Assembly (NCBI GenBank): GCA_947175535.1
Contig: CAMWNF010000002.1
Location: 1-62,061 of the forward strand
Origin: an uncultured Bacteroidales bacterium
Lineage (GTDB): Bacteria > Bacteroidota > Bacteroidia > Bacteroidales > Muribaculaceae
Direction of reading: 5' to 3'
Length of the DNA stretch: 62,061 nucleotides
The position numbers and the translations under genes were made by a program. The notes under the pieces were generated by a model, which was given only the letters and a program-made list of their open reading frames with translations, was not told the DNA's origin and made no database searches. Within the stretch, counting starts at the first letter, position 1; the number at the start of each line of letters is the position of its first letter. This document shows, one piece after another, positions 48,370-51,206 of the stretch.

Positions 48370-49842
48370 ATGAAAAAAACACTTATTTTGGCACTGCTAT
48401 GCCTATCCTCTCCCGCAAATTCTGATGCGCGCATCCAGCTACCTTCACTGATTTCTGACAACATGGTCGTCCAACAGCAGAGTGATATCAGACTATGGGG
48501 TAAAGCCTCTCCGGGGAGTGAAATCTCTGTCAGTCCATCGTGGAGCAGTGTTCCCTTTAAAACTTTTGTTGATAACGAAGGACGTTGGGAACTTTTTGTG
48601 CCTACTCCGGCAGCCTCAAAAACACCCTACTCTATCACTTTCTCTGATAAAGACGGAAGCTCTACGGTAAGCAATGTGTTGGCAGGAGAAGTATGGTTTT
48701 GTTCCGGTCAATCAAACATGGAGATGCCGATGCGCGGCTATCGTCATCAGCCGGTCGATGGAGGTCTTGACGTAATAATCTGTGCACGCGACACAACTCC
48801 TATAAGAATGTTCACTGTCGACAAAGCAGTAAGTTCGGAACCACTTGACTCCTGCTCGGGACATTGGGCATTGAATACATCGGACGAAGTAGCCGAATGC
48901 AGTGCGACTGCCTATTTCTTTGCTGAAGAACTACGCAAAGTATTAGGCGACGATATACCCGTAGGGCTGATTATCTCCGTATGGGGCGGCACAACTGTTC
49001 AGCCCTGGATGTCACCATCGGCTGCTACGTCTGCCGGACTCGATCTCAGCCGTCTGAACGAACCTGTCGACAGGACAACACCCGACGTTCTTAACATCCC
49101 CTCAACATTATATAACGCCATGGTATCGCCGGTATTACCCTTCACTGTCAAAGGCATGCTTTGGTATCAAGGGGAAAGCAATTGCTCAGATCCCGGACTT
49201 TACGCGCAACTTATGCCTGAATTCGTTAAGTGTATGCGCGCCGGTTTCGGACGCGATGACTTACCGTTTTATTACGTGCAAATCGCACCCCATGACGGTT
49301 ACGGCGATTTATCAGACAATGTCGCGCCCTTACGTCTCGCACAGTCGCATCTTATGCAACAGCTCCCTTACTGCGGAATGGTTGTGACCCTTGATATCGG
49401 AAATCGCTACTGCATCCATCCCACTGACAAGCGCACAGTTGGTAAACGGTTGGCATATTGGGCTCTTGCGAAAGACTATGGCAAAAACGACTTCGCCTTT
49501 TCCGGTCCGATATTTGACCGCATGGAATGGGACGGTAAACGAGCTCTACTCTTTTTCAGTAATACAGGTGGCGGCGTAAGCCCTCTTGAACAGGAACTTA
49601 ATGGTTTTGAAGCCGCAGGAGAAGATGGCATCTATCATCCCGCCCGCGCAATCGTCGAATGTGAGACCGGCACATTAAGCGTCTACTGTGATGAAATCGA
49701 CGAAATCAAAAAAGTAAGATACGCCCACTCCTCCTGCCCCACTGCTACCCTTTTCGATAACTACCAACTTCCCGCCGCCCCGTTCACAACTTGTCTGCTC
49801 GACTATCAATCTTCACAAATAAATATTTCTGAAAATGAGTAA
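48370..49842 (+). CDS. Sialate O-acetylesterase family SGNH hydrolase
   Basis: 490 residues from ATG 48370 (MKKTLILALLCLSSPANSDA/R), which gives a signal peptide; the longer frame from 48322 begins before the -7 box. Blocks of the family are visible: LISDNMVVQQQSDIRLWGKA, VWFCSGQSNMEMPM (catalytic Ser of GQSN), MLWYQGESNC and NRYCIHPTDKRTVGKRLA (Asp/His region). It removes O-acetyl esters from sialic acids or other glycans in the periplasm. No sialidase is adjacent. Its 3' end is overlapped by 8 bp by an inserted transposase gene. Confidence 0.93.
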   Translation: MKKTLILALLCLSSPANSDARIQLPSLISDNMVVQQQSDIRLWGKASPGSEISVSPSWSSVPFKTFVDNEGRWELFVPTPAASKTPYSITFSDKDGSSTVSNVLAGEVWFCSGQSNMEMPMRGYRHQPVDGGLDVIICARDTTPIRMFTVDKAVSSEPLDSCSGHWALNTSDEVAECSATAYFFAEELRKVLGDDIPVGLIISVWGGTTVQPWMSPSAATSAGLDLSRLNEPVDRTTPDVLNIPSTLYNAMVSPVLPFTVKGMLWYQGESNCSDPGLYAQLMPEFVKCMRAGFGRDDLPFYYVQIAPHDGYGDLSDNVAPLRLAQSHLMQQLPYCGMVVTLDIGNRYCIHPTDKRTVGKRLAYWALAKDYGKNDFAFSGPIFDRMEWDGKRALLFFSNTGGGVSPLEQELNGFEAAGEDGIYHPARAIVECETGTLSVYCDEIDEIKKVRYAHSSCPTATLFDNYQLPAAPFTTCLLDYQSSQINISENE

Positions 49843-50279
49843 AGTATCATCCATCTACCATATCGTTTTCAATACCAAATATCGAAAACCGACCATTCCC
49901 ATTGATAAACGTCGTCAGTTATACGCATATATTTTTGGTATTGTTAAAAATAACCGATGCAGACTTCTTAGAATAAATGGGACAGACAATCATATTCACA
50001 TGCTGGTCAATCTGTCTCCAACCATTGCACTATCTGACTTTGTCGCAACAATTAAGCGTTCGAGTAGTATCTGGTTGAAAGAGCATCCCCGATTATAAAG
50101 GTTTTGATAGCTGGGGACGCGAATATTTTGCAGCATCTGTTTCACAATCAGATGCTGATAAAGTTATCGTATATATTAAAACGCAGGAAGAACATCATTT
50201 AGGTCATTCTTTTGAAGATGAATTAAAAGATGAAATCACCTCGAACGGATTGACTTGGGATGAATATTGTTTAACCTGA
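49835..50279 (+). pseudogene. IS200/REP-type Y1 (HUH) transposase, frameshifted
   Basis: The first 87 residues end at TAA 50096-50098 and contain IYHIVFNTKYRKP and the HUH motif NGTDNHIHMLVN. The rest continues in another frame from about 50088: GFDSWGREYFAASVSQSDAD, VIVYIKTQEEHHLGH and ...LTWDEYCLT, stop at 50277-50279. One extra base in the CCCC run at 50087-50090 explains the break. The catalytic Tyr of VIVYIKTQ is thus lost from the first product. Restored length would be about 147 residues, normal for these single-stranded-DNA transposases. The gene overlaps the esterase end and is followed directly by a cluster of palindromes. Confidence 0.88.
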
Positions 50280-50283
50280 TATA

Positions 50284-50589
50284 TCCACCTCTTCAAGGTG
50301 GAATATTATGTCTGGACTATACCTCTCACGCAGGCTTGGTCTCCGACCAATCTCTGCATGAGTATAATTAAATTTCTCGCATACTGCGAGAAAGCTGCGT
50401 CTAATAATCAGTACATCTTAATTACCAACATATTACCCATTTATAGGAAGAGATTTGTATGGTATCTTGCGAGTAATAGCTTCTTCCTCGCTGATGGCGA
50501 GGAATTTGAATAACCTCATGCAGAGATTGGTCGGAGACCAAGCCTGCGTGAGGAAAACGATAAAAACTATGCGCTTACCTCGTAGAGGT
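50284..50589. repeat. Symmetric cluster of six palindromes beside the transposase
   Basis: Outer hairpin TCCACCT/AGGTGGA (50284-50302); a 38-bp element (50325-50362); inner hairpin TTTCTCGCA/TGCGAGAAA (50373-50393); inner hairpin TTCCTCGC/GCGAGGAA (50484-50504); an exact inverted copy of the 38-bp element (50515-50552); outer hairpin ACCTC-GTA-GAGGT (50577-50589). All three pairs are centred on 50438-50439. Each 38-mer is itself an imperfect hairpin. The gap 50280-50588 has no convincing gene. Confidence 0.85.
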
Positions 50590-51146
50590 TACATTACAGT
50601 ATTATTAATGCAATCAGACGCATTTAGACAGAGCATAAGACATAGGTGAGCAACATCAGATGCACACCGCCCACTTATATTCACTCCATTAACCGTCAAA
50701 CTATCACTATTTTCAATCAAGGGCAACTTCGGATTATTATCTACTACTATAAGCCGCTTGAGTTCTTCAACATTCGCAGTCTCAGGCATTTTCCCGTCAG
50801 TCACCACAAGTCCATCCAATCCGCCCCACACCTTAGCTATGTCATCAAAAATACAACCGGAAAACGATGCAGGATAGAAACGAGCTCCCGATTTTTGGGC
50901 CAATTCTCTACCGTTTTTTTCATCTTCCGAAAAAAACGCCACCTTACATCCCGCAGCGCGAAGACGACAAATTATAGCTGTAGCGTAATCATACGAGCCG
51001 TCCGTAACAAAAATACGCAACGGTTCTATTCTGAAACTTACTGTCCCGAGACGATCGCCGCTCGGAGTTAACCGCCGCGCATTCGATTTTGCAATTCCGC
51101 CCCGACGGTGCTCTTCCATCTTTTTCTCAAGATAATTGTCAGCCAT
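50589..51146 (-). CDS. SDR-like Rossmann-fold protein lacking the catalytic motif
   Basis: 185 residues from ATG 51146 (MADNYLEKKMEEHRRGGIAKSNAR); the frame from 51176 starts upstream of the promoter box. The N-terminal 35 residues are charged. A Rossmann start follows (IEPLRIFVTDGSYDYATAIICRL, AGCKVAFFSEDEKNGRELAQ, KVWGGLDGLVVTDGK), similar to short-chain dehydrogenases, but the glycine-rich TGxxxGIG loop is altered and no YxxxK pair is seen in the short remainder. Its last codons adjoin the palindrome cluster, so the C-terminus may have been changed by that insertion (inference). Confidence 0.6.
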   Translation of the reverse strand: MADNYLEKKMEEHRRGGIAKSNARRLTPSGDRLGTVSFRIEPLRIFVTDGSYDYATAIICRLRAAGCKVAFFSEDEKNGRELAQKSGARFYPASFSGCIFDDIAKVWGGLDGLVVTDGKMPETANVEELKRLIVVDNNPKLPLIENSDSLTVNGVNISGRCASDVAHLCLMLCLNASDCINNTVM

Positions 51147-51164
51147 ATAATCTTCATTTTGGTG

Positions 51165-51172
51165 CAAAAATA
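51165..51172 (-). promoter_or_regulatory. -7 box of the SDR-like gene
   Basis: Minus strand TATTTTTG, perfect consensus, 18 bp before ATG 51146. Confidence 0.6.
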
Positions 51173-51206
51173 ACAATAAATCACGTTGTGCGGCGTTTAT
51201 TAGCTG

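Follow-up and report, generated by a model that had tools for sequence, protein, structure and literature searches.

A mirror pair of three-hairpin, REP-like units beside a subclass 1.2 Y1 transposase gene: probably a decayed REPtron-like locus in Bacteroidales

REPtrons, BIMEs and REPINs are built around class 2 TnpA-REP transposases (RAYT), e.g. the subclass 2.2 enzyme of E. coli. The Y1 HUH gene is flanked by strand-specific hairpin repeats, often in inverted pairs; copies are dispersed over the genome and a conserved foot lies 5' of the hairpin. The E. coli TnpA-REP acts on single-stranded REP, not on its complement, and requires the GTAG foot (PMC8266576). In TIRtrons the Y1 gene (TIRYT) is flanked by inverted repeats (Di Nocera et al. 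2013, PMC3733652), and the 26 listed examples were assigned to subclasses 2.1, 2.2 and 2.5 (PMC6006769). TnpA-Y1 subclass 1.2 of Bacteroidetes was described as low in copy number and without IS properties (Quentin et al. 2018, PMC6006769). Table 1 of that paper enters 'no' under REP for subclass 1.2, and its automatic REP search was built on GTAG or GTGG. A literature search that covered few subscription journals and no preprints, and included passages of PMC6006769, PMC3733652 and PMC8266576, gave no account of REP-like units in this subclass.

The locus described here lies in a window of 62,061 nucleotides, i.e. the whole stretch of DNA that was analysed, from an uncultured Muribaculaceae bacterium (draft genome G000). 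A symmetric hairpin array begins 4 nt past the stop codon of a transposase gene, tnpA. Judged from the sequence, this array is, with good probability, a REPIN/BIME-like mirror pair of REP-type units of the adjacent IS200-lineage transposase of subclass 1.2, i.e. a REPtron-like locus and probably a decayed relic.

Three mirror-image pairs of palindromes had been proposed in the initial annotation and were located where it had put them, around a centre at 50438.5. The exact 38-bp inverted repeat was verified as well, the arm 50325-50362 being fully complementary to the arm 50515-50552. The inner hairpins (50373-50393 and 50484-50504) do differ at six positions and the claimed compensation holds for one stem pair (T/A to C/G); the remaining four changes sit within the loop or adjoin it. 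The outer hairpins are the least similar mirror pair of the array. When the arms were lengthened to 70 nt they were 86% complementary, and none of the 10 mismatches lay in the 38-bp core (p = 1.6e-4 by position). Identical cores between diverged flanks suggest either that one arm has been converted by the other or that selection acts on the core. Single-stranded DNA folding of the array gave z-scores of -13.9 (+ strand) and -15.7 (- strand), and 0/100 shuffles were equally stable on either strand, which excludes a chance origin. The array consists of two inverted units, left on the - strand and right on the + strand, as in REPINs and BIMEs. The proposal of two head-to-head copies of one unit, resembling a BIME-type REP pair, holds in the window and by recurrence elsewhere, with a unit size of about 110 bp here against the roughly 130 bp given. 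The features are listed below, where HP1 and HP2 denote the short hairpins on either side of the long hairpin of a unit and R2 is a covariance model introduced further on.

49835-50098, + strand: first part of tnpA, a Y1 (HUH) transposase of TnpA-Y1 subclass 1.2 by motif; PF01797 68.6 bits, NF033573 (IS200) 61.8 bits (cut-off 55), HUH motif NHIH
50091-50279, + strand: continuation of tnpA in a different frame, with the Y motif YIKTQEEHH and the stop codon; Y---Q--HH is the subclass 1.2 signature (PMC6006769)
50282-50395, - strand: left composite unit with a decayed foot, in the order HP1, linker, long hairpin, HP2 on the - strand; R2 match 50283-50391, 22.1 bits, E = 8.5e-4; fold z = -7.6
50284-50302: HP2 of the left unit, TCCACCT-CTTCA-AGGTGGA, TTC on the + and GAA on the - strand, with a wobble-closed loop
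50325-50362: long hairpin of the left unit, the exact 38-bp inverted repeat of 50515-50552
50373-50393: HP1 of the left unit, with a GTA loop on the - strand
50482-50591, + strand: right composite unit; R2 match 50486-50593, 45.4 bits, E = 2.5e-9; fold z = -7.0
50484-50504: HP1 of the right unit, with the degenerate loop TGATG
50511-50515, + strand: TAACC, the conserved foot 5' of the long hairpin of the right unit, by alignment and column conservation
50514-50553: long hairpin of the right unit, with a CC...GG foot and an apical GGA loop
50577-50589: HP2 of the right unit, ACCTC-GTA-GAGGT

The right unit thus retains TAACC...GG; the left one is without that foot but has kept the hairpin core.

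The neighbouring gene had been taken for an HUH transposase, which the Y1 family match (PF01797) confirmed. Its reading frame is broken near 50086-50098 and resumes in another frame up to the stop codon at 50277-50279. The Y motif fits Y---Q--HH, which is present in 103/106 related open reading frames; the remaining three (L040, L156, L167) are cut short or altered there. An intact relative, P0002 from locus L090, scored 78.1 bits with the IS200 model NF033573 (cut-off 55) versus 25.3 bits with the RAYT model NF047646, REP_Tyr_transpos (cut-off 80). By these scores P0002 is not of the class 2 or RAYT type found in REPtrons. All eight PDB sequence matches of P0002 were transposases, with ISHp608 among the best, and two distant matches were obtained in viral contigs. 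The N-terminal 84 residues of the window protein, used as query, found relatives in 80/146 genomes, the own one included. The draft G000 contains three Y1 genes, of which the two others match the window query at 48% and 32%.

The neighbourhoods of related genes were collected as 80 stretches (two from the own genome) and 24 named loci. Eleven flanks read out from them revealed a composite unit with a recurring order, mostly about 85-120 nt overall: HP1 as a GNA hairpin, a linker of about 10 nt with TAACC at its end, the long hairpin, a spacer of about 20 nt and HP2, again a GNA hairpin. Inverted repeats covering at least 60 of 600 bases were present in 20/89 upstream and 20/90 downstream flanks around 105 genes, totals which omit flanks cut short by contig ends, versus 3/480 mostly coding control blocks. 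Among three-base loops the GNA type made up 186/260 in the flanks versus 16/94 in the controls, with closing pairs C-G (113), T-A (69) and G-C (4). Because the GNA loops are mostly confined to one strand, each palindrome has a polarity. GNA triloops are unusually stable DNA mini-hairpins. The GAA triloop has been termed 'ultra-stable' (PMC11101458).

A strict, model-free scan for the composite in 700-bp flanks returned 66 composites beside 33/105 genes versus one in 426 control blocks, again mostly coding, and none in five local shuffles. The single control composite belongs to L098, a locus which itself has arrays beside its gene. A second locus with the same order of hairpins, asked for at the outset, therefore exists. 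The 97-residue fragment L124 was excluded from the inverted-repeat, GNA-loop, closing-pair, GNA-polarity and strict-scan counts; near-identical loci (L041-L044; L053/L059; L036/L038) were retained in the inverted-repeat, GNA-hairpin and strict-scan counts. The degenerate loops of the window array cause the strict scan to miss it. Some members lie on contigs whose titles name Planctomycetaceae and Phycisphaerales (L039, L049, L055) or Spirochaetaceae (L045). The 14 adjacent pairs of strict-scan units, with '>' and '<' giving unit direction, were arranged '<>' (6), '><' (4), '>>' (3) and '<<' (1), and mirror pairs '<>' like that of the window occur downstream at L114 (gap 59) and upstream at L130 (gap 67). 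Overlapping head-to-tail rows of R2 units were observed at G298:C6:72341-72597 and G198:C30:19084-19366; tandem arrays with shared hairpins seem to exist as well.

Covariation supports the pairings. In an alignment of 24 units, the two window halves and 22 others, 16/16 pairs of the three helices showed double changes (RNAalifold) and the covariation score was 0.738 versus 0.274 in shuffles (0/500); the 22 were picked from 67 for containing hairpins, so covariation is partly built in, whereas the window rows were not so picked. From this set, which includes one more own-genome unit (L115), the covariance model R1 was trained, and R1 counts are accordingly partly circular. For R2 the 150 top-scoring R1 matches were used, and rows from the window or the own genome were kept out; a small leak remains in that R1 produced the alignment on which R2 was trained. 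Within these 150 matches (109 clusters) the foot of the long hairpin is TA(A/G)CC (T 0.72, A 0.99, A 0.73 or G 0.25, C 0.99, C 0.94) and its 3' foot GG (G 0.92, G 0.96), and in each of the two GNA loops the G and the A are conserved (G 0.93, A 0.96; G 0.84, A 0.95); the figures come from the fitted R1 alignment that also trained R2 and include R1 training units. GT[AG]G, the 5' hairpin foot of REPtrons, is thus replaced by TA(A/G)CC. The cleaner tests are the strict scan and R2 on the window. Run with filters off over the 62 kb, R2 gave two matches with E below 1, which are the two units of the array (2.5e-9 and 8.5e-4; the next match had E = 1.7), and no unit upstream of tnpA.

How closely are the units tied to the transposase gene? 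R1 gave 147 matches at E up to 0.01 over 97/104 loci, the run leaving out L038, L040, L043, L044, L059 and the own-genome L115 and L166. Of these, 138/147 were within 1 kb of a subclass 1.2 gene, with L057, where no gene was called, scored as farther. The density was 0.81 per kb near versus 0.023 per kb far from the gene. In non-ORF DNA, a check separate from the mostly coding controls above, it was 2.0 versus 0.18 per kb, i.e. 11-fold higher near tnpA (binomial p about 3e-22, R1 counts). At least one unit lay within 1 kb of 60/97 genes; the other 37/97, some near contig ends, had no R1 match in that range.

The units are also oriented. The nearest R1 unit within 300 bp aims at the gene, upstream '>' in 38/45 and downstream '<' in 44/48 cases, and 29/34 genes having units on both sides show '><'. 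The nearest GNA hairpins within 300 bp behaved alike (61/72 upstream, 63/73 downstream; '><' in 49/57 where both were present). Like the window array, 32/44 downstream '<' units begin within 20 nt of the stop codon.

The initial annotation had left open whether copies stand beside Y1 genes or alone, and both were seen. When pieces of nine arrays were searched against their own nine genomes, chosen for clear arrays, each gave 7-36 matches, gene-adjacent ones included, many of them on other contigs. R2 units were found in 86/146 relatives and 63/247 phylum-wide genomes, the own genome being in both counts. These counts are lower bounds: the own-genome search missed the two units of the window, and searches of more than 40 genomes used stricter filters. 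G014, for example, had 36 matches with array pieces, yet no R2 match in the survey of relatives. In the own genome R2 found two units flanking tnpA on contig 42 and seven further units (E up to 2.2e-5) on contigs 77, 128 (an inverted pair), 141, 64, 25 and 28. On these six contigs no Y1 gene was detected by PF01797, nor near the six loci by tblastn with the window protein. By alignment, none of the seven units is of the same sequence family as the window array. A third unit family of G000 (L206-L213; contigs 77, 128, 141, 64, 25, 28) has mostly GTA loops and the long hairpin CCACATGC...GCTTGTGG. For 19 fetched units the context was clearly intergenic in 7/19 by naive ORF overlap, a measure affected by the spurious open frames which hairpin arrays create.

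The window array itself gave, in a DNA similarity search as a whole, only self matches in its own genome and none in the other 145 relatives. DNA identity is the wrong tool for this array because stem sequences vary from species to species. When the half-unit was searched in the own genome with E up to 10, two extra matches of 14 and 17 bases appeared, both at chance level. Thus, flanking hairpin repeats with copies elsewhere, as in REPtrons, are present for the unit class, and the sequence family of the window array is single-copy in its own genome, without dispersed copies.

At the level of genomes tnpA and units are associated: 57 genomes have both, 23 tnpA only, 29 units only and 37 neither (odds ratio 3.2, p = 0.0012), a moderate association. 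Twelve out of twelve tnpA-negative relatives with at least five units (5 to 29 units; G008, G056, G063 and G065 among them) gave no Y1 match. The presence of units in tnpA-negative genomes implies that units outlive the enzyme, that the drafts miss the enzyme or that units serve another role.

The site could be compared in relatives. At L062, in a genome of the same genus, an esterase gene and a gene for a 195-aa protein abut convergently, without tnpA or array, and an outer-membrane gene follows as in the window. The segment concerned is

49804-50590, + strand: sequence absent from the L062 site, comprising tnpA and array; the extent is approximate, set by eye, its ends being accurate to within tens of bases

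The simplest reading is a gain in the window of about 0.8 kb carrying tnpA and array jointly, rather than a loss in L062; as the neighbours abut in L062, transposase and array probably arrived together. At the same junction L063 (2228-2932; same-genus genome G010) has about 1 kb in which Pfam recognised one ORF as a HicA-family toxin and gave no match for a second ORF of 131 aa, so that one junction carries two different cargoes and is empty in L062. The 195-aa protein (window 50592-51176, - strand) has no Pfam match and is matched at least partly in 40/49 same-genus genomes, the own included.

A joint arrival would also be expected of an insertion sequence bounded by the units: tnpA and two inward-facing units, one per side, would move as one IS200/IS605-like element, and the dispersed units would be its solo remnants. 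The predominant '><' arrangement and the protein score above the IS200 cut-off agree with this. However, the own genome has only three Y1 genes, few and divergent, unlike an active insertion sequence, and no near-identical multicopy element with both ends was found in this draft. The window locus is without an upstream unit, many units lie on contigs away from tnpA, and the low copy number and missing IS properties reported for subclass 1.2 (PMC6006769) also argue against it. We consider this explanation unlikely.

Less likely still is that the array acts in RNA, as a bidirectional terminator or as mRNA-stabilising hairpins between convergent genes, its mobility being incidental. The array does sit between convergent genes, and units are still present where no Y1 gene was detected in the genome. 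Three terminator-like sites were predicted in 49700-50900 versus 0.9 expected, two of which are the array hairpins 50284-50302 (+) and 50373-50393 (-); yet their T-rich tails are weak. The hairpins are strand-polar, have GNA triloops and are oriented relative to tnpA, and inverted-repeat-rich flanks are equally common upstream and downstream, all of which speaks against a role in RNA. At the gathering threshold no Rfam family matched the array. MIR1435, the sole match at a permissive threshold, reached 32.6 bits versus 94 required and was rejected as its identity. The earlier suggestion of a structured RNA thus found little support, with a lone Rfam match far below cut-off, though two array hairpins are weakly terminator-like. 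That the hairpins are host structures linked to the transposase by accident, both favouring intergenic sites, would suit the unit-bearing genomes without Y1 match, yet is highly improbable in view of the 11-fold density near tnpA, the fixed orientation and the short distance to the stop codon.

We therefore favour the reading as a mirror pair of REP-type units of the adjacent transposase. The window copy is probably inactive in view of the frame break in tnpA, the decay of the left foot and the failure to find a further copy of its family in the genome; a single-copy family gives no sign that this array ever moved. In analogy to E. coli, the HUH enzyme would bind a unit on exposed single-stranded DNA, e.g. 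the lagging strand. The subclass 1.2 TnpA may read the GNA-strand hairpins and the TAA-CC foot as TnpA-REP reads GTAG and hairpin, and would cleave and rejoin beside the unit. Possibly the mirror pair folds via its 38-bp arms into one long hairpin, the putative mobile, non-autonomous form.

Such a system would give a context to a little-studied transposase subclass left by its describers without REPs or IS properties, and a candidate recognition code consisting of GNA loops, TAA-CC foot and fixed polarity. It suggests that single-strand transposases were domesticated into repeat-spreading systems on both main Y1 branches. A repeat class common in Bacteroidales would escape a search for GT[AG]G-tagged hairpins. 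In a wider view, to which we give about even chances, REP-type systems originated a second time from the IS200 side: subclass 1.2 would have its own REP class, polar, three-hairpin, with extra-stable GNA mini-hairpins and a TAA-CC foot, spread in Bacteroidota and a few other phyla, and units persisting after loss of the enzyme may have been adopted by the host.

How does this compare with the known systems? The enzyme agrees with subclass 1.2 in its Y---Q--HH motif, similar length, occurrence in Bacteroidetes and low copy number; unlike the entry in Table 1 of PMC6006769, REP-like units flank many members here (60/97 genes within 1 kb). The IS608 and ISDra2 elements of the IS200/IS605 family likewise have hairpins at both ends of the gene, and the protein of a relative matches ISHp608; in contrast, no multicopy element was found here, and the composite units occur as mirror arrays with dispersed copies. 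TIRtrons resemble the locus in their flanking inverted repeats, part of which are double palindromes that have copies in the genome, and differ by the motif GGGGWSAS common to many (PMC3733652). Bacteroidetes also have the REPtrons of subclass 2.6, noted for 'atypical secondary structures'. These have hairpins without GT[AG]G and copies elsewhere in the genome, yet their Y motif is YIH[QN]NP and their median length 179 aa (PMC6006769), so this is not the family described here. The class 2 REPtrons share the flanking, strand-specific and often inverted hairpin repeats, the dispersed copies and a conserved 5' foot. They differ by a Y--xNP type of enzyme as against the IS200 lineage with Y---Q--HH, by GT[AG]G as against TAA-CC, and by one REP hairpin as against three hairpins with GNA triloops. 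Thus, the system looks like and probably works like a REPtron, yet deviates in two REPtron traits, the class 2 enzyme and the GT[AG]G foot. This points to the units being an undescribed variant of REP repeat-and-transposase systems.
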